Assembly (NCBI GenBank): GCA_033439265.1
Contig: JAVTVX010000024.1
Span: forward strand, 9,965,001-10,029,000
Length of the DNA: 64,000 nt
Origin: Dillenia suffruticosa
Taxonomy: Eukaryota; Streptophyta; Magnoliopsida; Dilleniales; Dilleniaceae
Reading direction: 5' to 3'
Shown here one piece after another: positions 22,842 through 53,557 of this stretch; the first letter of the stretch is position 1, and each line of letters starts with the position of its first letter. Position numbers and translations under genes: made by a program. The notes beneath the pieces were generated by a model. It worked only from the letters and a program-made list of their open reading frames with translations, had not been told where the DNA came from and ran no database searches.

Positions 22842-23409
22842 TGCCCATCTGCCACATTTCATTTTTGACTCGAGAAAACTCGAAGAATTAAGGCTCAAGT
22901 TTGGTCTGGAAAATTAAAAGAGTTTTGGGTCCATTTCAAACCAAGTTTGGCCCGAAAACATAATTTTTTTGTTACATAATTTCATTTTTCAAATTTTTAA
23001 CCAATTTTATAATATAATAAATATAAAATAAAAATACATAAATCATCCAAAATAAAATACAAAACAAATATTATCTTGTCAAATTAAGAATTACACATTA
23101 TTATGAAAATTAACAATAGCATCATAAAAAAATTTTTAAAAATTATATTAAAAATAATTAGTAAAGTTATCAAAATCATCATTTAAATACCACAATATTT
23201 GATTTTAAATTAGAATAAAAGAATTTATACAGGCCGAGCCTATAACGGGCCGAGTGGGCCGAGTCCACTAGTGTTCACACTCAACATGTAATTAAAACGG
23301 GTCTAAGAAAAGGCTAGAGCTTAGCCCAATCCTGAAATAAGCCAAGCTCGGCCCTTCAAAACGGGCTAAGCTCAGGCCATACTCAGGCCGGCCTGACTGA
23401 ATTGCCGGT
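22842..23409. mobile_element. Unclassified GGCC-rich insertion with possible 8-bp target duplication
   Basis: The stretch is flanked by ATTAGCAA (22834-22841) and CTTAGCAA (23410-23417), which match at 7 of 8 bases. Inside are several copies of GGCCGAG, GGCTAAG, GGCTCAAG and ACGGGC-like words around an AT-rich core. An 8-bp duplication would fit a non-autonomous hAT element. The terminal inverted repeats are too weak to be sure. Confidence 0.35.
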
Positions 23410-23417
23410 CTTAGCAA

Positions 23418-23571
23418 CTATGTGTTTGTCCAAAAAAGATTTATCATTCTCTCTTCCTCTCACGCGTGATCAGTGCTCCTCTTTCATCTTTTTCCAGCAG
23501 AAGAAACCCAACTTGCAACCAAGCCGTAGCAGCAATCCTAGCCCAAATAGCCCTATCCGATGATGAAGCTG
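23418..23571. other. Unassigned DNA left of the MULE, with its 9-bp duplication
   Basis: CT-rich text leads to a short open stretch (VAAILAQIALSDDEA). It ends with ATGAAGCTG (23563-23571), the left copy of the MULE target duplication. I do not recognise a gene family in it. Confidence 0.4.
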
Positions 23572-23687
23572 GAGTTTGTATGGAATTAGCATCAAAAAAT
23601 AAAAAATAAAAAATTCTTAAAATGACATACCGCGGGAATATATTTTAAAAGTAACCCAAATTTGTTGAGTATTGAAAACTCAACATA
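23572..23687 (+). repeat. Left terminal inverted repeat of the MULE
   Basis: Inverted match to 40881-40986. The inner end carries GAGTATTGAAAACTC, itself a small hairpin. The A-rich tract near 23590-23610 differs in length between the two ends. Confidence 0.85.
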
Positions 23688-24006
23688 TTCAAAGGCTCTT
23701 CAAAACACATCTACCCCCTCTTATTTTCCCCATTTCTTTCTCTTCTCTTCTCCTCCTATGGCCGAACCACAACCTTTGGTGCATTCCAGTAGACATGAAA
23801 CCATTCGTCGATTGTATTCTATAACCTGCAACTTTTCGTGCATTCCATACTCGGCACATTCCAGTTACTGTGTTCTGCAAACTCTGAAGGTATATTGATA
23901 TTTTTTATTCATTTGAAATGCTTATTTTGATAGTGAATGATATTTTTAGCATGATGTATGTTATGTTCACTAAATTAGTTTTGTTGAAAAGTTTAATTAT
24001 TATAAA
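23688..24006 (+). promoter_or_regulatory. Left subterminal region and probable leader of the MULE
   Basis: CT-rich text (TTCTCTTCTCTTCTCCTCC) is followed by CTCTGAAG then GTATATTG, a plausible splice donor of a leader intron. By position this is upstream of the transposase start at about 34830, once the Gypsy insertion at 24007 is discounted. No promoter element can be named with confidence. Confidence 0.35.
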
Positions 24007-26505
24007 TGTCACGCCCCGAACCGAGATCGTGAACAGCCGCCTGTTATCCTGAATGCCGGCTGTATTTTTACAGAAAATCGGGCAGAACCTCCCCATATTT
24101 CGGAGGTTTCTCAAGTACAATTTACCCTGTATAAAATACAATCATCCTGTATTAAAATCAAATGGTCATCCCGGCCTCTCCAAAATCGACCGATCTCACA
24201 GCCGACATCCAGATAACACAAGGCTATAAAAATTTCCAATAACCTAGCCACAGACCTCTATTGCCATGCCCCCGTCAAAGGCATGGACAGCCGCCAGTCG
24301 CCCCTCCTGTGATTTAGAGGAGGCACCGAGCGATCCTAGAGGGCACTTCTAAGACTTGACACAACCCCAAGTACTTACACAATGAATCAGAAATGCCTCA
24401 ATGCAATGTTATGCAATGACATGTCCATATTTATACAGTCATCCCAGAATTATACAATGTTCGTCTATAGATCTCATAATACAAATACATCACCAATACA
24501 ACTACTAACTCACGAAATTGCAGCGGAAATATACAATAACTCCTCAGATCCAAATCAAATCTCCCAATGATACTGAGCGTCCTAAAAGCAACTTTCCTTG
24601 CCAAATACTATCCCTGAAACAAAAAGGGAAATGAGGGGTGAGTACTCGGGGAAGAATACTCAGCGAATGAGTGGATCAATGCAATCGTCAAATATGGGTG
24701 TGAAGCTGGAGTGTCAAAACACAAGTATACAAATCATCTTTCACATCATCATGCTTTTCATTTCAACAATATGTCATTTGCACGCATTATCAAGTCAAAT
24801 ATACATCCAAAGCACTGTCATTAAAATCATAGAGCTGCCAGTCGAAAATGTCCTGGCAGAGGTCTACAGCGACCTATGACAGGCGCACCGGGAGTGTTAT
24901 ATGCAAAGTTATTTAAAGTGCTCTCTACCCAGGTGTTGGCAACGAACCTCGTCCAGGTGCTAGACTTGGAGAGGATATCAAAATCCAAATCCAAATCCTC
25001 CCCCTTTCGGGTTCAACCTAGCTAGTACCGTGTCGATAATCAAATCACGACAACTCGGGGGATACCCCAGGCCTAGGCATATCTAGACGCCACCAAAGCA
25101 TCTCTCACGGTGTCCTTCGTAGATACGGAACAATACAATCCAAAGCCCTCAAGGCTAAAATCAATATCGCATCAAAAATGTGCCGAAATCAGGTTTACAA
25201 ACCAAATGCAACATCTAGCATAAAATGGTACATTATACATTTCAACCATATGGATGCATAATTTCATAATTCAACACAGTTTTTGGACACTCCATCGGTT
25301 CACAAAAATCAATTTTAAAAACAGTCAAAACATTTCAAACATACGACAAATCATGCTCATTCATCAAAATGTTATAAAATAGAGTTTACATATTAAACAA
25401 AAGTATTGAAATAAATCCCACTCACAGTTTTTGGGGAGGATAACGCACTCCCCAATAAAACCACAATACGTAAAGCAATGCTCCCCTCAATCGAATCACC
25501 AAAATAGCCAACCTAATCAATCATCACGATTTTCATTAGATTTCGACTATTGTCAGGGTTTATCATTTTCTTTAAATTCGTACAAACCCTAAATTCCTCA
25601 ATTTATAAACATATTCAAATGTCATCAATTTCATTCTATTTATAAGTAAATAACAAAATCAAAATCAATCTTAATTAGAATCTAAAACCAATTAATACTA
25701 CCTAATTTGACAAAGTTTATCCAAAGGTTGAAGAGATTTCGTTTCTCTCACCTAGGGTTTCTCGGATCTCGGATCTAGCTTTCGTTCGCCCGTTGGTTTG
25801 GTCTAAAACCTGAATGTTTCCAAATTTGAAACAATTGCGAACAATTTAAGTCCAACTACTAAAGAATTTCGAAACCCAAGTGCGAAAATCGAAACTTAGA
25901 TTCATTTACCTTCGCAGAGGCTCACGGACTGTCACGGGCCGTCGTGGACCGTGGATCGCGGGTTGGCGGGCCTGGTGGGCCTGCGGCCCTGATGGGTCTG
26001 GTGGGTGGTGGGCCGTGGGCCAGACTGGGCCACGTGCTGGACTGGGCCACAGTGGCTAGGGCTTGCGCTCACGAGCTGGATCGAGCGATCGCGCGCTGCT
26101 TGCGCTAGGCTCGCGCTGGCTCGCGCTAGGCTCGCGCTGGCTCGCACGCTATCGCGGGAAGGAGGGCGCAATGGCGCGAAGGACAGGGAGGAGCTGCAGC
26201 GGCTCGTTCGCGGGAGGGACCGGGTGGTGGCTGCGATCGCGCTCGGCGGAGGAGGAAGGCGCTGCGGCTAGCGCGCTCGCTTGAGGAGGAAGGAGCAGCG
26301 GCGGCTGGGTGCGGTGGCGAGCGGCGGTGCTGGCGGCGCAGCGGGAGGGGAAGAGACACGGCGGCGAAGAGATCGGGAGAAGAGAGAAGAAAGAGAGGGA
26401 GAGAGGGAAAGAGGGAGAGAGAAAGAGAGAGAGAGGGGAAATGGAAGATAAATTAGGGCTTTAAGCCCTAATTTTAAATATCCCGTTTTTTTTTTTTGTA
26501 TTATA
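24007..26505 (-). repeat. 3' LTR of the Tekay chromovirus
   Basis: About 2,499 bp. On the minus strand it starts TATAATACAAAA and ends GGGGCGTGACA. Modules on the minus strand: palindrome (26473-26451), GA/CT-rich tract, GC-rich array (about 26340-25925), intron-like segment (25909-25810), CTAGGTGAG (about 25760), hairpin (25453-25433) with GTGAGT (25425-25420). Its GC-rich array is about 200 bp shorter than that of the 5' LTR. Confidence 0.92.
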
Positions 26506-26526
26506 TTTTCTAACCCCCTAAAAACA
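26506..26526 (-). other. Polypurine tract of the Tekay chromovirus
   Basis: On the minus strand, TTTTTAGGGGGTTAGAAAA lies directly before the 3' LTR. It is nearly identical to the tract before 7130, and would be the second-strand primer site. Confidence 0.85.
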
Positions 26527-26552
26527 AATTTCGTCCTCGAGACTAAAAGAAA

Positions 26553-26975
26553 CTATACAGAGAAAAGTTGGGGGTGCTGTCTCCTCATGGCTTCTTCAGG
26601 CTCCCAGGTCTGTTCCTCGACCTGGTCGCTCCTCCACAAAATTCTAACAAGAGGAATCTCTTTGCTCCGTAACTTTCTGACCTGTCGATCCAAAATAGTC
26701 ACGGGCTTGACAGGTAAGCTCAAGTCCTCTCGAAACTCAACTAGCGGAGCCTCTAAAATGTGTGAGGGATCTGGCTGATATCTCCTAAGTACTGAGACAT
26801 GAAATACATCGTGAATACGCGATAGGTCTGCTGGCAACTCCAATTTATATGCTACACTTCCGACCCTATCAAGGATATGGAAGGGCCCAATATACCTGGA
26901 ACTCAATTTCCCTCGCTGCCCAAATCGAATGACTCCCTTCAAGGGAGATATCTTTAAGAATACCATGTCTCCCAC
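26553..26975 (-). pseudogene. Integrase C-terminal and chromodomain-like region
   Basis: GDMVFLKISPLKGVIRFG and KLSSRYIGPFHILDRVG are the GPY/F-type end of Gypsy integrase, followed by DVFHVSVLRRYQPDPSH. The tail PVTILDRQVRKLRSKEIPLV...WEPEEAMRR has the fold signature of the plant chromovirus chromodomain, which is thought to steer integration towards marked chromatin. This segment is about 140 residues and reads openly. Confidence 0.85.
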
Positions 26976-26990
26976 AGTAAACTCTAGAGG

Positions 26991-27871
26991 TCACCGCCTA
27001 CGATCTACATAGGATTTCTGTCTATCTTGAGCGGCTTTCATCCACGTACGGATAATCTTCACTTTCTCCTTCGTCTCCTCTACTAGCTCAACATTGGTGA
27101 GTCGTCGCTCACCAACCTCATCCCAGCACAACGGGGTACGATACTTCCTCCCATACAATGCCTCGTAAGGTGGCATGCCAATGCTAGCCTGATAGCTATT
27201 ATTATAGGCGAACTCTACTAACGGAAGATGCCGATCCCAACTCCCCCAGAAATCCATAATACATGCCCTAAGCATGTCCTCTAAAGTCTGAATGGTTCTC
27301 TCTGACTGACCATCTGTCTGGGGGTGATACGCTGTGCTGAAATTCAGTCTAGTACCCAAAGCCTCCTGCAGACTGGGCCAAAAATGGGATGTAAATCTGG
27401 GGTCTCGATCTGATACTATCGATACTGGAACCCCATGCAATCTCACAATCATATCAATATAGAGGCGTGCCAATGCCTCAAGTGAGTAATCACTCCTAAT
27501 CGGGATGAAGTGTGCGGACTTAGTAAGTCGGTCAACTATCACCCAAATAGCATCATGCTGTGTCGAAGTCTACGGTAATCCTACTACAAAATCCATCGTG
27601 ATATGCTCCCACTTCCACTCAGGAATGGGAAGGGGCTGAAAGTGCCAGCTGGACGCTGGTGCTCAGCCTTTATCTGCTGACATACAAGGCAACGAGCAAT
27701 AAATTCTGTAATTTCCCGTTTCATACCCGACCACCAATAACTGTCTCTAATGGTGCGGTACATTTTAGTACTACCGGGATGTAAAGCATAGGCAAATGAA
27801 TGGGCCTCCTCGAGAACAGCCCTGCGAAAATCACTATCTGCTGGTACACATACCCGATCTCGAAAAACCAA
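26991..27871 (-). pseudogene. Integrase zinc finger and catalytic core
   Basis: The HHCC zinc-binding part includes HPGSTKMYRTIRDSYWW and CLVCQQIKAEHQ (about 27800-27660). The core includes [49 protein letters not shown] and [11 protein letters not shown], giving the D-D-E acidic triad of integrases. It joins donor DNA ends to the host genome in the family. Confidence 0.88.
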
Positions 27872-27934
27872 CAGTCTATCCTTGCGAACTCTAAAGTCAT
27901 CAATATCACCTCTGCTAGCTTTCTCATAAATACC

Positions 27935-29338
27935 TCAGAACTCTTCATCACTCTGCTGATGCTCCCTGATACGGTCGAGCAAACTCGACCGAACCTCAAA
28001 TCTGGCTAGTATAGCTCCCTGATCATCACTAGGCAACCTGACTCCCAAGGCTCGGAGTCCCAATAAACATAAGAGATAAGTACTCTCAGTAGTCTGACAA
28101 GAGGAAGACGACTTCCGACTCAAGGCATCAGCGACTACATTAGCCTTGCCCGAATGATAGTCAATAATGAGTTCGTAATCCTTTAGCAGCCCTAACCATC
28201 TCTGATGCCTCATATTCAGCTCCCTCTGAGTGAACAGATACTTCAGACTCTTGTGATCTGTAAACACTCTGCATGTGACCCCATATAAATAGTGGCACCA
28301 TATCTTTAGCGCAAAGACTATGGCCGCCAACTCCAAATCGTGCGTAGGATAATTCACCTCATGCTTCTTTAGCTGTCGCGAAGCATAGACGATAACTCTA
28401 CCATCCTGCATCAATACACAACTCAATCCCTGCCTGCTGACGTCACTATACACTACATACTCTCGATTACTCATGGGAAGGGCTAGAATCGGAGCGGACG
28501 TCAATCGCTGTTTGAGCTCCTGAAAGCTCACCTCACAACGATCATCCCATACAAACTTGACACCTTTTCGCATCAATCTAGATAACGGAGCAGCAATTCG
28601 AGAAAAGCCCTCTACAAATTTGCGGTAATACCCGGCTAGACCAAGAAAACTCCTGATCTCAGTCACTGTCTGTGGCTGCTCCCATCTCGTAATGGCATCG
28701 ACTTTCTGCGGATCGACAAAAATACCCTCCGCAAAAACTATGTGGCCAAGAAAACCAATCTGTCGTAGCCAAAATTCACACTTGGTGAACTTGGCATAAA
28801 GTTGTCTCTCACGAAGAGTTTGCAGAACCACCCTAAGATGCTGAGCATGCTCATCATCACTCCGCGAGTAGACTAAGATATCATCAATAAAAACAATAAC
28901 GAACCGGTCCAAATAATCATGAAAAATTCGGTTCATCAAGTCCATGAATGCAGCAAGGGCATTAGTCAGCCCAAACGGCATGACTAGAAATTCGTAGTGC
29001 CCGTATTGAGTGCGGAAAGCTATCTTTGGCATGTCTTGACTCCTAATCCGCAATTGATGATATCCCGATTGAAGATCAATCTTCGAGAAAACTTGAGCAC
29101 CTTGTAATTGATCAAATAAATCATCTATGCGAGGCAGTAGATATCTGTTCTTCACAGTCACCCGATTAAGTTGTCTGTAATCCACACACAATCTCAATGA
29201 GCCGTCTTTCTTCTTTACAAACAACACTGGAGCACCCCAAGAGGACGTGCTAGGACGGATAAACCCCTTATTCAACAACTCCTGCAGCTGGACCTTGAGC
29301 TCCCTCAGCTCAGCTGGCGCCATCCTGTATGGCGGCAT
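27935..29338 (-). CDS. Reverse transcriptase and RNase H segment of the Tekay chromovirus
   Basis: This is the longest open segment in the window, 467 residues. Reverse transcriptase motifs in order: [71 protein letters not shown], and the catalytic loop FIDDILVYS near 28870-28896. [16 protein letters not shown] leads to the RNase H part ([55 protein letters not shown]). These domains copy element RNA into DNA. It belongs to an element that is broken elsewhere, so it is listed as a fossil part, not an active gene. Confidence 0.93.
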
Positions 29339-29401
29339 AAAGATAGGGGTAGTCCCTGGAGCTAAATCGATTTCAAAGTCAAACTCCCGAACCGATGGTA
29401 A

Positions 29402-30005
29402 TCAGGGTAGCTCCTCGGGGAAAATATCCGGAAAGTCCTGTACCACTGGGACATCCTCTAGTCTCGGTCCCTGAGCAGTAGTGTCAATGATATGAGCCAG
29501 GTAAGCCGCACATCCATGGAGAATCATGCGTCTGGCCTCCAAAACTGAAATGACACAGCGGGGTAAAACCCGCCTCTCGCCCTCAAAAATCAACACTGGC
29601 TGATCGGGTTTTCGAAACTCCACCTGCTTCTTAAAGCAGTCAACAGAAACCCGATGCATATGTAGCCAATCCATCCCCAAGGTGGCATCAAAATCAGTCA
29701 TGGCGAGGGGGATTAGATCTGCTTTCAGCACTGTATCCCCAACTTTGATCTCATATTTTTCTATATACTGTGTCGCGCACAATCTGCTCACCCAGAGGAG
29801 TGATGACCAATAGCTCCTCATCGAACAGTGAGAGTGGCCTATCAGAATGTCGGAAGAATTGATCGCTCACATATGAATAGTTAGACCCCGTGTCAATAAA
29901 GATATGAGCATCTATTCCGAAGATAGGTAGAGTACCTATCATTGAACAAAATGCACATAAACTTAGAATAATTTCAAACTTAATATGTATATATATATAT
30001 GTCAA
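29402..30005 (-). pseudogene. Aspartic protease region of the Tekay chromovirus
   Basis: HIFIDTGSNYSYVSDQF carries the retropepsin D-T-G active-site triad (near 29880). FDATLGMDWLHMHRVSVDC is the usual second block, and DIFPEELP the linker into reverse transcriptase. The enzyme cuts the polyprotein in the family. Confidence 0.85.
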
Positions 30006-30399
30006 AATAGTTGAGCCTCTAAGGCCTCTACAACTTTAGTGTACAAAGATGTCAGAGTAGTATCATGTCGACAAAAAGGAACACAACATAAAATACCTAT
30101 ACAACTGATACAATGCTGACATCCTCAAAAGAAGTGAAAATACGAATAGAGATCCTATTCTACAGGATCAGAAGGAGGAGTACCCATGATGATGTCGGGG
30201 TTTGCCTGGGTGTCCTCCTGCATCATGGCATAAACCCGGGCCTGAGCCCTAGCCTGTTGTCGTGCCTGAGTCTGCACTGTGTTACTCCCAGTGGTCACCC
30301 TGGGAGTAGAAGCTGCTGGCCGAGCAGGCTACCCCTGCTGTCCCATATGAAGAGTACTAGTGCGGCTCAGTGAACTCTGTCCTCCGAGTCCTAACTCAA

Positions 30400-31614
30400 G
30401 ACAAGAACTCCTAATATGCCCAGACTTCCCATAGTGGAAGCAAGTGACCGTCACTGAACAAGGTCCTATCGGATGGGACCTATTGCACCTGCGGCAATAA
30501 GGATGTCGCTGAGCAGTACACTGTGCAGGGTGAGTCGGAGTAGGCTGTCTAAACCCGTGGGAGTACTGTCCCCGCTCAGCTCAAGAAATCCAGATCCAAA
30601 TCCGCCTCTGTGCGAACTGGATCCCCTGCCCCTCTTTTAGTTCTGCACAAACTGAGACTTCTCTTTCTTTCTTTTCTGCTCTCTGCTCTCTTTCTGCCTA
30701 GTCTCTGCTCGGACCAAAGCCTCCGCGCAGTGAGCAGAGTCTATCATCTCGGCCAGTGTAAACTGTGGAGTAACAGTCATATATTTCTTTATGCTGAGAC
30801 TAAGACCGTCCTCAAATTTGAAGCGCAAATACTGAGGTGTAGCTAGATCTGGTACGAATGCGGCGAGTCTCCGCATATCTGCCTCGTACTCCGAGACAGA
30901 TCTGGACCTCTGTGTAAGCCGTCCCAACTCTGACCTCATCCGGTCCTGCTGGTAGAGTGGGAAAAATCTGCGGTCAAACTCCCGAAGGAAGTCATCCCAC
31001 CGCAGTGGCTCTATCGCCTCATCAGTGAGGGCCTCCCACCATGAGAGGGCCTCTCTCTCTAATAATCGCTCTGCCACTTTCAGGCAGAGCTCCTATCCAA
31101 TCCCGAGATCAGTCAGAATCCTGCGAATGTAGTTGATCCAATGCTTGGCTGCCGCAGCATCACCAAGCCCTGCAAAATCTGTGCACCCCAGCTGACGGGC
31201 CTCCTTAACCAACTGAGTCAACTCATGTACCCGTCTAAGAATAGCCGATGTAGTCTAACTCGGCTCGGACAAAGTAAAAGAACTGGCCACCAGCAGTGGA
31301 ACCGGTGCCGTAGGAACTGGCGCTGCTGTAGGTGCAGGCGCTGCTACAGGAGATGGTGGGGGCGGAATCTGGACCCCATGCGAAGCATACCACTCGTACA
31401 CCTATCAAAAGGCGTCGAGTGTGGGTACGGGAGTCTGAGCCTGAGCAGCTGGCTGAGTAGGTGCCGGTGGTGGCACGTGAGTCGAGGTACGATCCTCCGA
31501 CTCATCTAAGTCCTTTGGTACTCGTGGGGTCTCGGGTGCCCGAGGTGCATCTGGCACTAACAGACCCTCAAGTGATGTGAATCTAGCACTTCTCCTACCA
31601 CGTCTAGGTGGCAT
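30400..31614 (-). pseudogene. gag region of the Tekay chromovirus
   Basis: It starts MPPRRGRRSARF with a proline-rich spacer (PPAPTQPAAQAQTPVP). The gag domain follows at about 31077-30637 (ALSWWEALTDEAIEPLRWDD, FLREFDRRFF, MRRLAAFVPDLA, LRFKFEDGLSLS). A zinc-knuckle-like CFHYGKSGHIRSSC lies near 30440-30400. The segment is homologous along its length to the gag at 4423-5691. It is broken. Confidence 0.82.
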
Positions 31615-31922
31615 AATTCTGCAAGAAAAAGATGCTTATTAAGTATCATAAAAAGAATAGGCATGGTTCAAGAATTTTGGACTAATCATAGCATGGCTAC
31701 CCTCACAAAAGGATGAAATTCTTAGTTCAATAGGAGAAGAATATAGCAAGTTAGGTTAGATACAACCGTATCTAACCCCCTAAAATAGATGAACTCATAT
31801 GCCTATGACCATGCACCGGGACTTCATGAATGTATGAAACTCTCATGCATTGAGGACTTTAAAAACTAATATAATCGGGAATGTTTCCAAGACCCTCTTC
31901 CTACATAGCTCTTAACCAAGTC

Positions 31923-31934
31923 GCTCTGATACCA
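31923..31934 (-). other. Primer-binding site of the Tekay chromovirus
   Basis: TGGTATCAGAGC on the minus strand, 7 bp inside the 5' LTR end. It has the same tRNA-iMet type and spacing as in the element at 1064. Confidence 0.9.
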
Positions 31935-31941
31935 ATCCAAC

Positions 31942-34546
31942 TGTCACGCCCCGAACCGGGATCGTGAATAGCCGCCCGTTATCCTGAATATCGGCTGTAT
32001 TTTTGTAGAAAATCGGGCAGAACCTCCCCATATTTCAGAGGTTTCCAAAGTATAATTTACCCTGTATAAAACACAATCATCCTGTATTAAAATCAAATGG
32101 TCATCCCGGCCTCTCCAAAATCGACCGATCTCATAGCCGACATCCAGATAAAGCAAGGCTATAAAAATTTCCAATAACCTAGCCACAGACCTCCACTGCC
32201 ATGCCCCCGTCAAATGCATGGACAGCCGCCAGTCGCCCCTCCAGTGATTTAGCGATCCTAGAGGGCACTTCTATGACTTGACACAACCCCAAGTACTTAC
32301 ACAATGAACCAGAAATGCCTCAATGTAATGTTATGCAATGACATGTCCATATTTATACAGTTATCCCAGAATTATACAATGGTCGTTTATTGATCTCATG
32401 ATACATATACATCACCAATACAATCACTAACTCACGAAATTGCAGCGGAAATATACAATAACTCCTCAGATCCAGATCAAATCTCCCAATGATACTGAGC
32501 GTCCTAAAAGCAACGCTCCTTGCCAAATACTATCACTAAAACAAAAAGGGAAATGAGGGGTGAGTACTTGGGGAAAAATACTCAGTGAGTGAATGGATCA
32601 ATGCAATTGTCAAATATGGAGTGTGAAGCTGGAGTGTCAAAACACAAGTATACAAATCATATTTCACATCATCATGCTTTTCATTTCAACAATATATCAT
32701 TTGCACGTATTATCAAGTCAAATATGTATCCAAAGCACTGTCATTAAAATCATAGAGCTGCCAGTCGAAAATGTCCTGGCAGAGGTCTACCGCGACCTAT
32801 GACAGGCGCACCGAGGGTTTAATATGTAAGTTTATTTAAAGTGCTCTCTACCCCGGCGTTGGCGACGAACCTCGTCCAGGTGCTAGACTTGGAGAGGATA
32901 TCAAAATCCAAATCCAAATCCTCCCCCTTTCGGGTTCAACCTAGCTAGTACCGTGTCGATAATCAAATCACGACAACTCGTGGGATACCCCAGGCCTCGG
33001 CATATCCGGACGCCACCAAAGCTTCTCTCACGGTGTCCTTCGTAGCTACGGAACAATACAATCCAAAGCCCTCAAGGCTAAAATCAATATCGCATAAAAA
33101 ATGTGCCAAAATCAGGTTTACAAACTAAATGCAACATCTAGCATAAAATGGCACATTATACATTTCAACCACATGGATGCATAATTTCATAATTCAACAC
33201 AGTTTTTGGACACTCCATCGGTTCACAAAAATCAATTTTAAAAACAGTCAAAACATTTCAAGTATACGACAAATCATGCTCATTCATCAAAATGTTGTAA
33301 AACAGAGTTTATATATTAAATAAAAGCATTAAAATAAATCTCACTCACAGTTTTTGGGGAGGATAGCACACTCCTCAATAAAACCACAATACGTAAAGCA
33401 ATGCTCCCCTCAATCGAATCACCAAAATAGCCAACCTAATCAATCATCACGATTTTCATCAGATTTTGACTATTGTCAGGGTTTATCATTTTCCTTAAAT
33501 TCATACAAACCCTAAATTCCTCAATTTATAAACATATTCAAATGTCATCAATTTCATTCTATTTATAAGTAAATAACAAAATCAAAATCAATCTTAATTC
33601 GAATCTAAAACCAACTAATACTACCTAATTTGACAAAGTTTATCCAAAAGTTGAAAAGATTTCGTTTCTCTTACCTAGGGTTTCTCGGATCTCGGATCTA
33701 ACTTTCGTTCACCCGTTGGTTTAGTCTAAAACCTGAATGTTTCTAAATTTGAAACAATTGCGAACAATTTAAGACCAATTACTAAAGAATTTCGAAACCC
33801 AAGTGCGAAAATCAAAACTTAGAGTCATTTACCTTTGCAGAGGCTAATGGACTGTCACGAGCCATCGCGGGCCATGGATCACGGGCTGGCGGGCTGATGG
33901 GCTGGCGGGCCTGGTGGGCTTGCGGGCATGATGGGTCTGGTGGGCCGCGGGCCAGACTGGGCCGCGTGCTGGATTGGGCCGCAGTGGCTAGGGCTTGCGC
34001 TCGCGAGCTGGATCGAGCACTCGTGCAATGGGTCGCGCGCTGGAGCTCTCGCGCTCGTGCTAGGGTGCGCTCGAGCAATGGATCGCGCGCTGGAGTGCGT
34101 GCTGGCTCGTGCTGGGGCGTGCTGGAGGTGCGCAGGGGCTCGTGCAGAGGCGCGCAAGGGTGCGCTGGCGCTCGTGCAAGAGCGTGCAGAGGCGCGCTGG
34201 GGGTCGCGCGCTGCTCGCGCTGGGGGTTGCGCGCTGCTCGCGCTGGCTCGATCTGGGCTCGCGCTGGCTCACACGGGCTCGCGCTGGCTCCCGCGCTGTC
34301 GCGCGAAGGAGAGCGCAGTGGCGCTCGTGCAGGGAGGAGCTGCAGCGGCTCGCTCGTGGGAGGGACCGGGTGGTGGCTGCGATCGCGCTCGGCGGAGGAG
34401 GAAGGCGCTGCGGCTAGCGCGCTCGCGTGAGGAGGAAGGAGCAGCGGTGGCTGGGTGCGGTGGCGAGCGGCGGTGTTGGTGACGGTAGTGGGAGGGGAAG
34501 AGACACGGCGGCGGGGAGATCAGGAGAAGTGAGAAGAAAGAGAGGG

Positions 34547-34577
<31 letters not shown>

Positions 34578-34661
34578 GGGGGAAATGGAAGATAAATTAG
34601 GGCTTTAAGCCCTAATTTTAAATATCCCTTTTTTTTCTTTTTTTTTTTCCTAGGTATTACA
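31942..34661 (-). repeat. 5' LTR of the Tekay chromovirus
   Basis: About 2,720 bp, TGTAATACC...GGGGCGTGACA on the minus strand. Modules are as in the 3' copy: palindrome 34617-34595, GC-rich array about 34500-33860 (longer here), CTAGGTAAG near 33680, and the hairpin near 33357-33376. The inner text includes CCGTAGCTACGAAGG (about 33050). Confidence 0.92.
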
Positions 34662-34829
34662 ATAAATTTAGGGTTTAGTATGTTTAAGACTTAGTATATT
34701 TGTTGAATTGTTATAAGTTTATGTTTAGGATTCAAATTGCAAAAGTTGGGTTATTTGCATAACTTTATGATAAGTTGAATTAGATGTTAACAAGTTTAAT
34801 TTTGATAGTTATAAAAAATAGCGGATATA

Positions 34830-35951
34830 GTGAGATTGTTATACTATAGTAATAGTGAGATTGTCACGGGTAAGGATGGAATTGGTTATGATTGTGGTCA
34901 TTCGACATTGATTAGGGTGAGAAATAATGTATATTTTAATAAGTTGATATCTGTGATATGTAAATGCTTTCGGATAAATTCTATAACACAATATATGGAG
35001 GTTTTCCATCGGTGTCCTATCTAAAACATTCGACATGGGAATGTACAATATGAATTGGTGCCAATTAGTGATGATGATAATATTTTTAAATTGATGAAGT
35101 TTGCGGTGAGCATGGGAGTTTACTCATGAGTTGTACATAAAATCTTACAATAGTGAAATGTCCTCGTAATAAGGTTGTGATTATACGGATGATTATCCAT
35201 ATATTGAATCTCGAGTAAATCTTGTTTTCATAGAAGTGGATAACGATATTAATGAGGAAGAAATAGTGGAAGAAGAGACAGAAGAATAGGACGATGATGA
35301 AGATAAAGATGATAAAGAAGTTATTAATGGTGGTGGTGGTGGTTATGATGCTAACGAGTTAATGATCGAGTCCTCATTGGCCCTTGCAGTCGGAGATAGT
35401 AGTCTTGGTAATGCCTATGGCCGAATAGGTGACTCAATTCCCTTCATAACCACTGCACTCGGAAGTGATAGTTTTGTATTGAGAAAGATAGTAGATTGGC
35501 AAGCGATAGTTGGAGTTCTAACAATGAATTGAAGAGAGGGATTCATATTATCAAAATACACCATGTAAAATATCACTATCAATTTCGTATTGCGAAAATA
35601 ACTCTTATACTTTGAATAGAAATATATACTCAAAGGGATGAAGGTTATAGGTAGAGGTTGCATGCTCGAAGAATAAGACTTGTTGATACTTTTGTGATTA
35701 CTATTGTTGATGAACCACACACATGTGTGAATGCTAGTTTGATGCAGGATCATAGGTAGCTAGATTCAAATTTGATGGCCTGATATTTTCTTAATTCTGT
35801 AAAGAATGATGTCAATGTCAAAATTTCTTTCCGGTGAATTGTTATGATAGAGAGAACCATATATATAGTTTCTCATAAAAGAGTTTGGATAACGAAGAGA
35901 AAGGTTATAGAGATAGTATACAATTATTGGGATGATTCTTATAAACAATTA
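34830..35951 (+). pseudogene. MuDR-type MULE transposase, N-terminal half
   Basis: The text VTGKDGIGYDCGHSTLIRV...LISVICKCF and YELVPISDDDNIFKLMKFAV matches the N-terminal MuDR domain of MULE transposases. An acidic linker follows (EEEIVEEETEE and D/K-rich stretch, about 35250-35320). Next comes the WRLHARRIRLVDTFVITIVDEPHTC and QDHRQLDSNLMA block of the zinc-binding N-terminal region, then KRVWITKRKVIEIVYNYWDDSY. Several in-frame stops and frame changes show a decayed gene. It is interrupted at 35952 and continues at 37345. The enzyme would cut and paste the MULE at its inverted repeats. Confidence 0.82.
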
Positions 35952-37344
35952 TTATTACACGATTCTGGTGTATCAAGATTTCGAGTAAGTATACCCTAGT
36001 CAAGTATTGCGTGTAGTGTGAACAGGAGTCGTTCTCATGAGAATTAGACAAAATAAATCAAGATTGCAAAAATTTGAAGACAAAAAATAATAGATAAAAA
36101 CCATAATTTTATAAAACTCTAAAATATTGATTTGATCTGTTTTCAAGTTTTTTATATAGTCAAATTCTTTCAAATTACTTGAAGTTATTGGTTATAGAAT
36201 TATTATTGATGATGGCAGATTTTTTCTAAAGTAGATTCACCTAATGGCATGCAATGAAATCCTAATTGAATTAACCAAAACTCAATGGTCATACAATTTT
36301 GATTAAAACAAATTGCAATAAAATAAATAGAAAATCTGTAATTAGAGTTTTCTCTAAAACCCCACACATGATATTAATCCAATGGGCATACTTATAATCT
36401 CATATAGATTTTATTATTTGGACTAATCTCGTGCAATTATATTAGTCATACATGCATTCGATTTCAAATCTTCAAAATATAAGCCTAAACGTTTTGAAGC
36501 ATTAAGTTCAACAATAAAATATTGTCAAACAATAATAATGCCAATAAATATTTAAGAAAAACAAACAAATTAAATCATGCTATTAATCAAAAAATAGAAT
36601 TAATTGAGTTCTAGGAATAAGAAATTTAGGTAGACATAATGAAGAAAAACAAAAAAGTAAAGAAAACATTACAACCCCTTTTGCACCTAAAGTAGATGAA
36701 AAACGTCCTATAGAGGCTGCAAGGGTTAGTCTTGTTCTCCTCTTCCTCTAAATTCATGCAAGGTAGCCCTATATTTATTGGTCCAAAACCCTAATCAACA
36801 AGAGGTGGTGAATGGTTAGGAGATTTGGCTTTTCACTAGGACTTGGAAGTTGAGTTGTGATAATAAAGTTTATCCTATTGCTCTTCCCAAATTTGGAAAC
36901 TTGAACATTATCATTCATTTTGATGATTCTTGAAATTACCTATAAATTTATCCCAAAAATCTCTCACTAGATAAGTTCAAGTAGTTTCCCTTTTCAACAA
37001 AAACTTCTCTTTCTTAAATTTCAACAGTATAGCAACTTGTTCCAAATTTTTGAATATTTTTTGGCCTAAATCAGTTTCCATACTCTTTACAAAATTTGTA
37101 TGCCTTGAAGTCTTCTTTGTAATGCCATAAGAATCACGTTAATCAGCTATCGGAGAAAAAATTATGCCCAAAATACTAATAGGTGTCTTTGTAGTTCGAA
37201 CTTTTTTAAATAACCTCAAAATTTTCTAAAACAAAACCCATGAAAATAATTAATATGATGTTATAAAACAAGATTTCTAATAGTCCTAAAAGTCATAAAT
37301 AGGACCTAAAATAAAATAATTCATGTGTATAAAAATATTGCTAT
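35952..37344. mobile_element. Unclassified 1.39 kb insertion inside the MULE transposase gene
   Basis: Transposase text stops at ...SYKQL and resumes as LSRLLDVIV, so about 1,393 bp are foreign. The junction repeats CAATTA (35946-35951) and CAACTA (37345-37350), a possible 6-bp target duplication. The left part (AGTATACCCTAGTCAAG, AACAGGAGTCGTTCTCATGAG) resembles widespread non-coding plant repeats that I cannot place. There are no inverted ends, LTRs or coding motifs that I can see. The body is AT-rich. Confidence 0.55.
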
Positions 37345-38640
37345 CAACTATCTCGCCTATTGGATGTAATAGTGTAAAGGAATCTAGGGACACGAGTCAC
37401 TTGAAAGTTGGGTCCGCTAAATGCAAATAGTGAAAGGGTATTTGAATCTGTGTTTTGGGTATTTGGTCTAAATATCATGGCTTTTAGGAGTTGTAAGCCA
37501 TTGATCCGTGTAGATGGGACTTATCTCTATAGAAAATACAAACACAAATTGTTGATTGCATATAGTATGAACGATACCAATCACATTGTTCCACTAACAT
37601 TCGGGTTGATTGATGGAGAGTTGTGGTTTTTGAGTTGTGTGCAAGAGCATGTTGTTGGAGATAGGGAACATCTCATCTGCTTAATTTAATATCAGCATGA
37701 ATGGATAAGGGCAATAGTTGCTTGTCCAAAGGTTGGATAGTCACCTCCAAATGTTATGTGGTGATTTTGCATGCGTCATATTGTTAGCAACTTCAACACG
37801 CACCACAAAAAATCAAGCTTATAAGAAAGTTGCCATCATTGCTGCATTACAGCCATAGCTTGAGAAGTTTGAGCAATATATGGCGAGGATAAAGGATATA
37901 AAAGAAAATACTCCCGTTTATTTTACAAATATTGCCCCCTAAACAATGGACTCTCTTAACATGGTGGCTTTCATTTTGGGTATGTGACGACAAACATAAA
38001 TAGAAGTTATAATGTCATATTAAAAGGAGCAAGGAATCTACATGTTTTTTTTTTTGCCTTGGTGCTTAAGACTTTCTACAACTCGATGAACTATTTTGAG
38101 ACTCGACTAGGTAAGGTGAGAGCGGGAATGGCAAGAGGAGAGTGATACACAAAGTATGCCGCAGCCATGCTAGAGAGATGGATAAGCACAGTTAACCTCT
38201 AAATGGTTGTCTCTTTTAGTAGAGAGCATGGGATCTATGAGGTAGAAACAGACAATAAACAAACACGGTATGGCAACAACGGAGGTAGTAAACAGATTGT
38301 GGATGTGAGAAATGAGCATTGCACATGTAGGAAATGACAAATGTATAGAATTTCTTGCTCTCATGTAGTTGCTACAATAACCCGGATGATAATTGATGTG
38401 CATATGATCGTCGGGAAATGGATGACATGGGAATGCCAACTTAGAGTTTATAACCATCATTTCTTACCAGTAGGAGACAATTCGGGTTGGCCTATAGGTT
38501 CGTACCCAATAGTTATTTTCGTTGTATCACTTCAACGTGAGAAAGGAAGAACTAGATCATCTCGATCATGTGAGAATTATAGTGCAAAGAATCACAATAG
38601 AAGGAGATGCACAAGGTAAATGAGGTGTAGATTTTATGAC
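37345..38640 (+). pseudogene. MuDR-type MULE transposase, catalytic core and SWIM zinc finger
   Basis: ERVFESVFWVFGLNIMAFRS, KPLIRVDGTYLYRKYKHKLL and NHIVPLTFGLIDGE are the first catalytic block of the MULE DDE domain (VDGT aspartate near 37515). FCMRHIVSNFNTH (about 37770) is the usual HxxC-type region, and LEKFEQYMARIKDI follows. The SWIM finger is visible as CTC (38320-38328) and SCSH (38352-38363), with a TGA where a tryptophan is usual. It ends with a basic NHNRRRC tail. There are several further stops. It is not functional as read. Confidence 0.85.
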
Positions 38641-38944
38641 AGATAAGGACACAATTGAAGACTTTATCCAACCCAAACCAATAATCCTTGATTGTTAATG
38701 TATTTTATGTGTACTTCTTGTATTTCTTATGATGATGGAAATTATCTTGTATTAATGTATTTCTTAATGAATATTAACCATTATTATACTTTATGGCTTT
38801 CTTAAAACACTTACTCAAGACTTTCTTAATGAACATCTTAACTGTTATTATACTTTTTAACTTTTTGGATTAATGTATTTCTTAATGAACATTAATTGTT
38901 ATTATTTTTCTTGTATTAATGTTTTTTTTTTCATTGCGTCCCAT

Positions 38945-40560
38945 ATGGATCCTGAACCTATTGTTTAGAGTTTTCTACACTTCCATCCATGTCACCGTTC
39001 TTCGAGAGTTTTGGATAGAGAGAATACTACTTGGCTCACTTGCCATCGACGTGAAGTAGTTTTATGGCGTTGGGAGCACGGTCATATTGACTAGCGGGGT
39101 TCTCCCTCTCCCAAAGCAATCAGGATATTTGGGTGTTGCTCGACTACGATTCATTCAGTTGGATTGGTATTTGATCACTGCCCTAGTAGAAAGATGGGGA
39201 CAAGAGACACATGTTTCATATGTCCCACGGTGAGCTCATGATCATACTACGTAATGTAGAGATTCTTTTAGATTTACCTATAAATGGGATTTCCTTAGTA
39301 AATATGTCGATAGATAGCTCGTGGGGTGATATGTATGAGAAATTGTTAGGTGTTAGACCTTTACGTTTAGCATTTAAGGGTAGTTCTTTGAGCACGTATT
39401 GGTTGTCTTAGTTTTTTGGTGTGTTGTCCAAGGGTGTATATTATGTACAAATTATACGGACTTGGACATATATTTTGTTATTGAGAAGAGATGTGTTGTT
39501 TTGTGATAAGACTGCATACTTCATTTATTTATATTTTTTGTTACTTCTAGAGGACTTAGATATATTTTTATCATCATAGTTGGGGATCTATGTATTTGAC
39601 ATATTTGTATAGACAATTTTGTAAAAGCACACAAGCAAACTCACATGAGATAGGTGGGGCACTCATCCTACTTCGGATTTTAAAATGGGAGAGGTTTCTT
39701 TATATTACTCCCATTAGGTAATCACTGGATTTGGAAAAGGATGGTCCACTAGCCATAAGGTGGAAGTGATTACCCTCCTTATGCACGTGATGACAATGTA
39801 TGGGGAGGTATTTTGATAAACAGTCAATCAATCATGTCGTGTGGGTGCCCAATACTAAGAATGTATTGTCTTCCTTTGTTGACTACTGTTATGAGGGTAG
39901 AAATTGAGAAGCATATTTGAACTATACGGTAAGTGTACAACTTGCTATTTTGTATTTATATTAATAATTTAGATATGCTAGTTTAACTAATATATATATA
40001 CTTTCTTGTAGTGGGATACTCTGTATCAGATTACACACTTCGATGGTGTCGACATGCCTGGGATGGTGAATTCTGCTATTGTGGTCATGGCAGATGATAT
40101 GGCACACCTTTTGATACGTAAACTGACTAGAGTGGTGACAAAGGAGATGATGAGGACCGAGAACATCGACAACCATGAGAGAGGACACGTCCTAGGAGAT
40201 CATCACTATCGCCATATCATGCATCACCGCCACCATTTTAATATCTACCCGATATAACAAAACTTTTGAGTAGGTATGTAGAATCTTCATCTTTTGTCAA
40301 CTAGTGTTTGATGATATCCCTCATGTTTTCACTCTGAGAGCTCCACAGAGGGGAGTTCATCCCGATATTTACATGAGTGAGGAATTGACATAGGTTGAAA
40401 GAGATAATACATCACCCTGTATAACATGTCCCCACTAGTTTTTTCTGATCCCCACTATAATGATATAGAACCCTCCTAAATCACATAGATAGACGATTTG
40501 GATTTAGTGTTTCATGATAATAGTATAGATGTAAGATCTAATTTAGGTTTTAGATAGTAT
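38945..40560 (+). pseudogene. Plant mobile domain (PMD, MAIN-like) gene carried by the MULE
   Basis: It starts MDPEPIV. LGVARLRFIQLDWYLITALVERW (38,0xx-39,200 in pieces), HMFHMSHGELMIILRNVEIL, LDLPINGIS and WGDMYEKLLGVRP follow; these are core blocks of the aminotransferase-like plant mobile domain. TWTYILLL, LFCDKTAYFIYLYFLLLLEDLD and WGSMYLTYLYRQFCKSTQANS, IGGALILLRILKWERF continue the domain. In host plants this domain occurs in MAIN/MAIL1 proteins that influence genome stability and transposon silencing, and copies are known inside transposons. Here it lies about 300 bp downstream of the transposase on the same strand, within the same inverted repeats. Stops interrupt it. Confidence 0.8.
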
Positions 40561-40880
40561 ACTAGGAGAAGAAGAAGACATTAAAACTTTTACATTCTAT
40601 ACTTTGCATATTTCATTGTGTTAATAAAAATTATATTTTTATTTTATCGATAATTGTATTATGAATTACTATAGTCTGTTTGTTAGTTTTACTATGTTGG
40701 TCAGCTATTGGATATGAGAATTCGTGACATTATATATTGTTGATATTACGTGCTGGTGTTTGCATTTGGATATATGAGAATCGGATAAAGAAGTTTGGGT
40801 ATGAGAATTAGTGTAGTTTGAATATGAGAGTTGGAAATGGACATGAGAATTCAAAATGAGCTAGCTTGTGGGGACAAAAG
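40561..40880 (+). other. Right subterminal region of the MULE
   Basis: Non-coding, AT-rich. It contains repeated GGATATGAGAATT-like words (near 40712, 40770, 40798, 40825 and 40846), a cluster of subterminal motifs of the sort often bound by a transposase, and leads into the right inverted repeat. Confidence 0.5.
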
Positions 40881-40986
40881 TATGTCGAGTGTTAAAAACT
40901 TGACGAATCTGGGTTACTTTTGAAATATTTTACCGCAATATGTCATTCTAAGAATTTTTTTTTTAGGTTAATTTCGTACAAAGCTC
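40881..40986 (-). repeat. Right terminal inverted repeat of the MULE
   Basis: Inverted match to 23572-23687. The outermost bases GAGCTTTGTACGAAATTA (minus strand) end at 40986, followed by C/ATGAAGCTG, the second target duplication. Confidence 0.85.
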
Positions 40987-42014
40987 ATGAAGCTGTCCTA
41001 GGCCTAACCCTAGCCTCCATCATCATCCGTACCCTCCTCAATTTCACTTTTATTTTTTTCCCTTCTTCGCACTATCACCATAACTCCTTCTCTCTCCATC
41101 TCCAACCTCGAGTCTCTCCTCTCCTTTGACAATGAAGAACAATGACAACAACAATACTCCAATGGGTCATCAAAACTTGTCTTCGTTCATCGCATCATCG
41201 AATCTAAAGTGAACGTTGATGGCTCATGGAAAAGCATGTTGTCGGGTGCTTTGGTTTCACGTGAGTCTAGAGATAAAGCGGTAATTATTCAAAGAACTAT
41301 ACAACCAAAAAAAAATTATTCAAAAAACTCAATTAGTATGCTCTTGGTATCTTTGATTGGTTTTTTGCAATTTCTTGAAAAGTTTGTGTGCTAATTTAGG
41401 GTTTGTCTAGAGATAAGTGGAGAGACATTTGAGGGGGGAGAGAGAGAGAGAGAGAGAGAGAGGAGTAGCTAAGTTAAAGATTGCCAAATATTGAATCTCT
41501 CTCTAGTAAAGACCAAGAAACCTAATGAGATTCATCTTTAGTTCTGATTCATTCTTGATATCAACCTTTCGATTTAACCTTCTATGAAGATGATATCTAA
41601 GGGTTTTTTCTCTTTATTTTTTGTTTGTAGTTTAAAGCAGAATCAATAGCAGATAAGAATGTTCACTTGTTGGAGGAGGTTGCAAAGTACAACAAAACCA
41701 AGGATTGCTAGCTTATTATCTCCGGCAAGGTCAAATCTTAACTTTCCGATCTCTTAATTTCTCTCATTCATTTATTGATGAGTAAATTAAAATTGCTTCA
41801 TATACTCCCTACTCCTATTCTTTTTTCATAGTTGGGAGTCAAATTGAATGCTTAGTAACATATAGAGTCTGAAATTTGGAGTTCTTCATTGTACTAATCG
41901 GGTCAAAATTGGATCCTTTTAGTATATTAATTTTTGCAAATAGCCTTTCCTAGCATCGTAAAAAGGAAGGTTGTTGATGGTCACTCTTAGGTCTTGGATT
42001 GATCACTTTTTTAT
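40987..42014 (+). other. Unassigned sequence, possibly a decayed gene piece
   Basis: After the target duplication there is CT-rich leader-like text. An ATG follows at about 41132 (MKNNDNNNTPMGHQNLSSFI), then a (GA)n tract (41438-41462). A short coding-like piece, KAESIADKNVHLLEEVAKYN, sits near 41635-41700 with AAG/GTC-type junctions. I do not recognise the family. The remainder to 42014 is AT-rich without clear features. Confidence 0.3.
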
Positions 42015-50913: not shown

Positions 50914-52293
50914 TTAGATTGCTTCATCAAAACTTATTGGCTCTGTGTCTGCAAATAAACAAAAGAAAGTGGAATCATTGAGTTCTTTCGTTTCTGCATA
51001 GATTTCTTCCAAACTTCGCATACGAGGAGACCTCTCGCAAGAGCTTTGAGGGGAAAAATCTGCTTGATTTGATTGAGGTGCATGTAGAGAAGTTTGTGAT
51101 GTAGTGGTAGCAGCTTGATTTGTTTGAGATACTCGTGGAGGAGTCTGTGATGTAATAGCAGCAGTAATAACTTGGTCTGGAGATTGATCTGCATAAACAA
51201 AATTATCAAACAAATGAATAAAGTTATAATTTTCATCTTGAGGAATATTCCATTCCCAAGAGCCATTTTCATCAAACTCCACATCTCTGCTGATGATAAT
51301 TTTTCCGTTCTGAGGATTATAAAATTTGTAACCTTTAGAATGTTTTGCGTATCCTATGAATACGAGCCTTTCACTTTTATCGTCCAATTTGCTTCTTATC
51401 TCTTCCGGAACATAAATATAACCAATACTGCCGAACACTCTTAAGTATGAAATATTTGGCTTTTTCCCACTCCATGCTTCTTGTGGAGTCATTTGCTTCA
51501 ATCTCATTGTGGGACTTCTATTTATCAGATAGACTGCACATGCAACTGTCTCAGCCCAAAACTCTTTTGGCATTCTCTTGCCTTTCAGCATACTACGAGC
51601 TACGTTAAGGATGGTTCTGTTTTTTCTTTCCACCACACCGTTCTATTGAGGTGACCTTGAAATAGTCAATGAGTGTCGGATACCATGATAATCACAAAAT
51701 TGATAAAACTTTTGTGATGTGAACTCTCCTCCTCGATCAATTCAAATGGCTCTAATTAAGCAGCCCTTTTCATTCTCAACTTGAATTTTGAATATTTTAA
51801 AAGCTTCAAATGCTTCAGATTTTTCCTTCAAAAAATAAACCCAAGTTTTGCGAGAATAGTCATCAACAAACAATAAAAAATACCTGCTCTTCCCATATGA
51901 ATTTGGGTTGAAAGGCCCACATATATCAGCATGTATCAAATCAAGTGGTTGTGAGGCTCGAGAGAAAGACTCCTTCGGAAAACTTTTCCTGGTTTGCTTA
52001 CCGTACATACAACCTTCACATATTTGATTGGGATGGTTTATGGGAGGTAAACCATACACCAACCGTTTCTTAGACAGCAACTCCAATTTACCAAAATTCA
52101 AGTGACCCATCCTATGATGCCACAACCATGATGTATCGCCTACAGTAGCCTTTAAACACTTGGGAATATCAATATTGATCTTCAGTTTAAACATATTGTT
52201 CTTTGATAATGGCACTTTTGCAATCAGTTTTCCTTTTCCATCTTTCATAACAAGCCTATTCTGGTTCACCATTATCCCATATCCCTTTGCCAA
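50914..52293 (-). pseudogene. Copia GAG-pre-integrase and integrase region
   Basis: The pre-integrase zinc region contains LWHHRMGHLNFGKLELLSKK and CEGCMYGKQTRKSFPK. The core has PLDLIHADICGPFNPNSYG and YFLLFVDDYSRKTWVYFLKE, followed by [20 protein letters not shown] and [14 protein letters not shown]. The C-terminal part includes [20 protein letters not shown] and a serine/threonine-glutamine-rich tail. Confidence 0.9.
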
Positions 52294-52392
52294 AAGCTAT
52301 CCAATACTCAAAATATTTGTTTTTAAGGCAAGAACATAATAAGTATGAGAGATAAATTGGTGATCTCCATTCTTCAATCGTATAAGAATATC

Positions 52393-53557
52393 TCATTTGC
52401 CCATGATAGGAACAGTAATTTTATCGCCTAAAGAAATTCTACTTTTAACAGATTCATCAAAATTACAAAACAAATCTTTGTTACATGTTATATGATTGCT
52501 GGCTCCAGAGTCAAGATACCAAAACTCCAAATTTCTTTCTTCATTTTTGTTGCAAGTCATTAGCAAGGTGGACTCTTCATCTTTCTCGACCTCAACAAAA
52601 TTTGCCTTCTCATTTTTGTTAAAATGCATTTTACAGTCTGCAGCAAAGTGATTCCATCTTTGACAATTGTAACATTGTATACTAGATACTCGACCACGGC
52701 CTCCTTGAAACCAGCCACCTCTACCGTGTCCTCTTGATTTTTGTTGCTAAACATCTAGTTCCTCATTATCAGTGAAATTTCTGCCTCCTCTACCTCTTCC
52801 ACGTCCTCCTCGAGTCCAGCCTCGACCTCTTCCACTTAGTCTTCCTCGGCTTCGGCCTCTACTACGTCCACCAGCAAATTATTGTTTTGTATCCTCCTTT
52901 TCATTGATATTTAATTTAGCCTGTAATACTTGGCCAACAGGCTCTTCTCTTTTCTTCAATCTTTCTTCATGGGCTTGTAAAGAACCCAAAAGTTGATCAA
53001 TTGACATTTGCTCCAAATCATGTGACTCTTCGATTGTAGTCACAACAAAATCAAATTTTGGAATCAACAAACGAAGAATTTTTTCAATCACACGAACATC
53101 GTCCTTCATTTCTCCATATCTTCTTAGTTGATTAACAATTGCCAAAACTCTATTAAAATATTCTTCAACAGATTCAAAGTTCTTCATTTTCAGATTTTCA
53201 TACTCACCTCTCATGGTTTGCACACGCACTTTAATAACTTTGTCTTTTCCTTTAAAGGAATTTTGAAGGACCTCCCATGCACCCTTTGCACGTGTTGCAG
53301 AAGAAACCTTTTCAAACATACTCTCATCCAAGCACATATGGATAAGAGTAAGTACTTGCTGGTCTTTCTTCTTAGCCTTTTGCAAAGCATCTCTTTGTGT
53401 AGTCGTCATTGCTCCCTCGTTCTCAGGCTAATCACAGCCCTTCTCAACAATGTCCCATACATCTTGGGATCCAAGTAGTGCTTTCATTCTAATGCACCAG
53501 TTGTCATAATTTTCTTTGGTGAGTTTGGGAAATTGGAAAGGAAACATTCCATTCATC
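52393..53557 (-). pseudogene. Copia gag and protease region
   Basis: It begins MNGMFPFQFPKLTKENYDNW near 53557. The gag domain includes [56 protein letters not shown] and [20 protein letters not shown]. An Arg-Gly-rich stretch leads to the zinc knuckle CYNCQRWNHFAADC (about 52677-52630). The protease active site YLDSGASNHIT lies near 52500. The region is broken. Confidence 0.9.

Follow-up and report, generated by a model that had tools for sequence, protein, structure and literature searches.

The window analysed here, a 64,000-nucleotide stretch of the Dillenia suffruticosa genome (contig JAVTVX010000024.1, positions 9,965,001 to 10,029,000), contains a 17-kb Mutator-like element (MULE) with two nested inserts. 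We assign a probability of about 0.96 to the whole account, in which the MULE was inserted into a duplicated exon, decayed, and was later entered by two long terminal repeat (LTR) elements. The element occupies window positions 23572-40986 and has terminal inverted repeats (TIRs) of approximately 115 bp and an exact 9-bp target-site duplication. The duplicated sequence, ATGAAGCTG, directly abuts both ends of the element (Table 1), and no further copy was found on either strand of the 64-kb window. An earlier sequence-only reading of this DNA had claimed inverted repeats 17.4 kb apart flanked by this exact 9-mer, and the alignment of the left end with the reverse complement of the right end bore out the claim. 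The two TIRs were 82% identical over 84 bp (23604-23687 versus 40881-40964, inverted). Their alignment scored 93; none of 500 shuffles exceeded 30, and random pairs drawn from the window (up to 2000, leaving out those less than 300 bp apart) reached at most 59. At the very tips of the element, GAGTTTGTATGG and GAGCTTTGTACG were also present and matched each other. After subtraction of the inserts and their duplications, the MULE measures approximately 5.36 kb.

The insertion of the MULE into its target was directly demonstrated by empty paralogous sites. The 596 Mb assembly (37 contigs) was searched with both flanks. The left flank matched other repeats in the genome, and the empty sites came from the right flank, which matched a multi-copy sequence starting at the first bases past the duplication. 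The best 40 of 1417 candidates were scored, and 12 places fell in the part adjacent to the junction. In all 12 listed paralogues (L036-L047), the left flank continued directly into the right flank across a single 9-bp site, apart from point differences, indicating that 23572-40995 is an insertion together with its duplication. A target-site duplication of 9 bp (8-11 bp) and terminal inverted repeats, two features of the MULE superfamily, were both found at this element.

The target can be read in frame as a gene's first exon (MSSRDQAVAAILAQVALAGDGAVLGLALAYV... in L036), which we take to resemble an SPL2/SP1-like E3 ligase; a Pfam scan of the exon found no family. The copies with longer flanks (L036-L038) have only the exon region in common with the window, and the window copy of the exon carries stops and frameshifts, implying that the target was probably already a gene fragment at the time of insertion, or soon turned into one. 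This presumed SPL2-like exon is repeated at 12 listed places, and six of the 12 frames stop at an identical point (SLFSS), a pattern suggestive of a dispersed gene fragment. A multi-copy repeat with about 71-84% similarity to other genomic sites lies just left of the target at window positions 22867-23372.

The left TIR had 24 matches genome-wide including itself (24 of 24 candidates scored). Thirteen MULE relatives were examined, and both ends were located in seven of them. These relatives end at positions homologous to those of the window element, and direct repeats of 9-10 bp were present at the ends of six of the seven. The repeats were exact in L005 and differed at one position in L048, L004, and L050, at two positions in L049, and at three in L002; several were identified by eye, that of L004 lies two bases off the estimated end, and the set was assembled without a chance control. 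Two relatives, L048 and L049, span approximately 5.3 and 5.1 kb from end to end. Three others, L002 (within C11:6598252-6601365), L004, and L005, carry both TIRs of the window element within approximately 460, 850, and 670 bp, respectively, and are therefore non-autonomous because of their short length.

The larger of the two inserts had been described in the sequence-only reading as a Gypsy element with an ATAAA duplication, and its boundaries, domains, and LTR divergence agreed with this description. The minus strand of the insert encodes gag, protease, reverse transcriptase, RNase H, and a weak integrase piece, which scored below the cut-off (26 bits versus 32.6). The features expected of a Ty3/Gypsy element, namely TG...CA LTRs, a 5-bp duplication, and Gypsy-type gag/pol, were all present; on its inner side, the left LTR apparently terminates in ...TATTATA, one mutation off TATTACA. 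The divergence between the two LTRs, expressed as Kimura two-parameter (K2P) distance, was 0.071 over 2493 aligned sites. Assuming 1.3e-8 or 7e-9 substitutions per site per year, the Gypsy element would be approximately 2.7 or 5 million years old, which would be a minimum age for the MULE.

The second insertion, of approximately 1.39 kb and previously of unknown type, is real and can now be identified as a solo LTR of a Gypsy-type element. Its repeat family gave 1063 first-look candidates, of which the best 40 were scored, and its ends at 35953 and 37346 were set by alignment with five other copies (L010-L014). Exact 5-bp duplications flank three of these five copies (L011, L012, and L013, with TTGGC, TATGT, and CTAAA, respectively), and L012 and L013 have TG...CA ends. 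The 1.39-kb sequence also occurs at three places in same-strand pairs approximately 3-6 kb apart, and a frame enclosed by one such pair matches a retroviral-type aspartyl protease (E 2.7e-5). Taken together, the exact duplications, the TG...CA ends, the spaced pairs, and the protease frame indicate that the insert is a solo LTR, with LTR ends and a 5-bp duplication and no internal region. The ends and duplication are canonical in L012 and L013; in the window copy, the TG end and the duplication each carry a single mutation. A DNA transposon was rejected as the identity of the insert on the basis of the copy alignment.

We aligned 80 bp of the MULE on either side of each insert to six related MULEs (L048-L053). 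The solo-LTR site aligned without an insert in all six relatives (scores 129-194), and the Gypsy site was clearly empty in four of them (L048, L050, L052, and L053; scores 146-201, at most 7 extra bases). Related MULEs without the inserts are thus present in the genome. The relative clock read from the nesting was upheld in placing the MULE before both inserts, as these empty sites show; it leaves the two inserts unordered relative to each other.

The sequence-only reading had also placed a decayed MuDR transposase and a plant mobile domain (PMD) gene inside the element, and both were recovered by Pfam and by matches to L061, which belongs to a young MULE family whose transposase (870 aa) and PMD (490 aa) frames are intact. 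Protein identity between the window copy and L061 was 59% for the transposase (790 codons) and 54% for the PMD (315 codons), with 21 and 7 stops in the aligned codons, respectively. The identity to the 870-aa L061 transposase marks the window gene as a MULE/MuDR transposase, albeit decayed, and the match to the L061 PMD places a PF10536 gene inside the TIRs, as in PMD-bearing MULEs. An intron-like GT...AG stretch (39929-40011) separates PMD exon 1 from the likely exon 2, for which tblastn gave no hit in the window. At about 39896, the window PMD gene lacks approximately 300 bp. Because this gap has no GT...AG bounds (by eye) and the stretch is present in all six relatives, it was interpreted as a deletion, and precise intron loss was rejected on the same grounds.

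The L061 transposase contains DBD_Tnp_Mut (PF03108), MULE (PF10551), and SWIM domains, all scoring over the cut-off. The L061 PMD scored 293.6 bits, and its gene has a second frame of 180 aa after a short GT...AG stretch. In the PDB, the intact PMD matched a single entry, a capsid protein (E 0.31). The genome searches with PF10551 and PF10536 scored the best 150 of 737 and the best 117 of 1536 candidates, respectively, and counts drawn from them are lower bounds. Each of the 15 listed transposase frames of 870 aa is followed on the same strand by a PMD match at most 1.7 kb downstream, and at 11 of these 15 loci the match is stop-free and lies in a 490-aa frame (hand count). Three members, L059, L060, and L061 (on C20, C26, and C5), are 97.7-99.7% identical over a main aligned stretch of approximately 8 kb and are flanked by exact 9-10-bp duplications (TGGTACGGCG, TTTCTCTAG, and AGTTATGGC), and this 8-kb family is likely a recent burst. 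The TIRs of the window element aligned weakly with those of L061 (scores 33-39), indicating that the window copy belongs to a related but distinct, older lineage.

Several observations weigh against our account of the locus. The empty sites are paralogues, approximately 75-86% alike, and not the same locus in another plant. Among the relatives, L053 has no end duplication at up to two mismatches, and the Gypsy site in L049 and L051, both of which are missing much of the MULE in that region, gave scores of only 76 and 71, without a control. In the Pfam scan of the window copy, which covered open pieces only, the transposase piece (PF10551, E 2.3e-5, 25.2 bits) and the PMD piece (PF10536, E 3.2e-6, 27.0 bits) fell below their cut-offs of 27.6 and 34.9 bits. 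In the window, the solo LTR is flanked by a duplication that differs at one base (ATTAT/ACTAT), its 5' end is TA instead of TG, and two of the five other copies (L010 and L014) show no clear duplication. These last points would also fit a non-autonomous DNA element or a truncated retrotransposon, a reading of the 1.39-kb insert that we consider very improbable given the exact duplications of L011-L013, the TG...CA ends of L012 and L013, and the same-strand pairs with a protease frame inside one of them.

We give practically no credence to the idea that the 9-mer and the inverted repeats arose by chance or rearrangement and that no single 17-kb element exists. Short repeats do recur randomly in 64 kb, and the left TIR is A/T-rich, but random pairs did not approach the TIR score, both MULE ends were found again in relatives, and the target paralogues are uninterrupted, with the break falling exactly at the 9-mer. 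The empty paralogous sites thus rule out a chance 9-mer. The features of the nested MULE are listed in Table 1.

Table 1. Features of the nested MULE and its target in the window.
Feature	Position	Strand	Basis or remark
Left target part, 5' end of SPL2-like first-exon copy, ending with the 9-bp site	23423-23571	+	Contiguous paralogues, reading frame
MULE target-site duplication, left copy (ATGAAGCTG)	23563-23571		
Left TIR	23572-23687	+	TIR alignment
ATAAA duplication of Gypsy element, left copy	24002-24006		
Gypsy LTR retrotransposon	24007-34661	-	Both LTRs, broken frames, LTR K2P 0.071
ATAAA duplication of Gypsy element, right copy	34662-34666		
Decayed MULE transposase, 5' part	34818-35952	+	tblastn with intact L061 transposase
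Decayed 5-bp duplication of solo LTR	ATTAT 35948-35952, ACTAT 37347-37351		
Solo LTR of Gypsy-type element, 1394 bp	35953-37346	-	Copy alignment; strand inferred from L056
Decayed transposase, 3' part (MULE core and C-terminal region)	37347-38673	+	
Decayed PMD gene, exon 1	38945-39928	+	Start codon placed by eye
PMD likely exon 2	40012-40257	+	Open frame; by-eye likeness to L061 180-aa second frame
Right TIR	40881-40986	-	TIR alignment
MULE target-site duplication, right copy	40987-40995		
Right target part, remainder of SPL2-like first-exon copy	40996-41404	+	

Elsewhere in the window, Copia-type pieces (gag-pre-integrase, Retrotran_gag_2, and SH3_retrovirus) were found on the minus strand at 50914-53427, and another gag piece with a zinc knuckle was found on the plus strand at 4894-5691. 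In the genome as a whole, matches to the Rubisco large subunit amounted to five short pieces, and an exon of the Rubisco small subunit resembled many chains to about the same degree. A pattern for a C-terminal motif typical of core-eudicot AP3 proteins had no match, which is no more than a weak hint as to the plant group.

The history of the locus may be outlined as follows. A TIR-type MULE of approximately 5.4 kb, presumably autonomous, with a MuDR-type transposase and a downstream, same-strand, two-exon PMD protein, entered a duplicated first exon resembling SPL2, in the manner usual for Mutator elements, and generated the 9-bp duplication. Its presumed autonomy follows from the remains of the transposase and PMD genes, and from the filled and empty sites alone we infer that it once moved. 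The MULE then died, and a Gypsy retrotransposon later entered its 5' region. Another Gypsy-type element entered the transposase gene and probably shrank to a solo LTR by LTR-LTR recombination, as the solo structure suggests. The transposase and PMD genes decayed through point stops, frameshifts, and the deletion of approximately 300 bp.

To compare selection on the two genes, the ratio of nonsynonymous to synonymous substitution rates (dN/dS) was calculated against L061. Across all seven old copies (the window copy and L048-L053), the transposase had ratios of 0.25-0.39 and PMD exon 1 had ratios of 0.28-0.35; for PMD exon 2, the ratio was 0.25-0.46 in all six old relatives. Synonymous sites in these copies are near saturation (dS 0.8-2.0), the tblastn stretches are biased to conserved protein, and the changes in the old copies include some from neutral decay. 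In L069/L075, a younger copy that has also decayed, the ratio was 0.75 for the transposase, 0.63 for PMD exon 1, and 3.6 for PMD exon 2, the last on 94 codons with few changes. Ratios among the three young copies L059-L061 were uninformative, with 0-4 synonymous changes per gene. With dN/dS near 0.3 for both genes, the PMD appears to be a component of the element under selection.

A FastTree phylogeny was built from 19 PMD rows, in which the clade status of the MULE rows depends on the root. The window PMD falls among the old MULE copies, its position within them being unsupported (0.19 and 0.59). The old PMD copies split from the rest with a local support of 0.996, and the nine other PMD loci split from all MULE rows of this lineage with a local support of 0.91. 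Two of these nine loci, L072 and L073, adjoin MULE transposase matches. L073, together with the adjacent L076 (G000:C17:18244600-18249100), represents a second MULE-PMD lineage, in which the transposase is 36% identical to that of the young family and the PMD downstream of it groups apart from the first lineage. L067 (positions 56-1189; G000:C11:19836955-19838088) consists of one open 378-aa frame joining a stretch resembling the MULE transposase N-terminus (27% across 94 aa against L061, with E 7e-7 for this one comparison) to a PMD (match 1.8e-44), and is possibly a transposon-derived host gene.

We suggest, tentatively and at less than even odds, that the PMD is a working part of this MULE lineage, selected as tightly as the transposase and possibly counteracting silencing or acting on host chromatin as a mimic of the host MAIN/MAIL silencing proteins. 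On this suggestion, there would be at least two separate MULE-PMD lineages and at least one locus (L067) possibly retaken by the host. A passive passenger, that is, a captured host fragment with no role in the transposon, is in our view rather unlikely: MULEs frequently capture host fragments, according to Dupeyron et al. (2019; PMC6446971), and the passages on MULE-borne PMD in the literature considered here show no function, but the PMD occupies the same position and strand in the window copy, in all six old relatives, and in the young family, and its exon 1 has a dN/dS similar to that of the transposase in the seven old copies.

PMD-bearing MULEs have been described previously. The portion of Dupeyron et al. 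(2019) dealing with them lists a PMD for seven plant MULE groups (MULE-Solanaceae_1, VANDAL, MuDR-9_OS, MULE-Monocots, MDR, MUDRAVI2, and MUDR). The MULEs in that portion have in common with the present ones a transposase with SWIM and CCHC fingers, the 9-bp duplication, and the PMD as an extra gene, as well as TIRs in most groups. The PMD described here is a separate, sense-strand, two-exon gene, whereas the table of that paper gives an antisense orientation in several groups; no difference in kind was found. Passages of Ikeda et al. (2017; PMC5418596) report fusions of MULE transposase and PMD-C in several grasses and Amborella, and speculate that MULE-borne PMD is used in a transposable element anti-silencing pathway. 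Both cases involve a PMD borne by angiosperm MULEs; the proteins in those passages are fusions, in contrast to the separate frames of 870 aa and 490 aa in the young family. In eudicots, mainly genic PMD-C is present, whereas other angiosperms have variable numbers of genic and transposable element-associated copies, according to part of PMC7156037.

Among candidate coding MULEs, 36% in maize and 41% in rice contained nested insertions, and over half of the maize MULEs with nested insertions had two or more, as stated in sections of Zhao and Jiang (2014; PMC3903597). LTR retrotransposons are nested in coding MULEs here as in those sections, with no difference in kind. PMD-bearing MULEs and LTR elements nested in MULEs are therefore both already published, and the nesting event is commonplace. 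This nested fossil is routine yet unusually well documented, with an empty target, an exact duplication, and two inserts, one of them datable. As a by-product, the analysis revealed a genome in which a young, near-identical MULE family with intact transposase and PMD frames is present beside old, decayed relatives. This young family provides material for asking whether a transposon-borne PMD aids the element against host silencing, as speculated in the passages of Ikeda et al. (2017).

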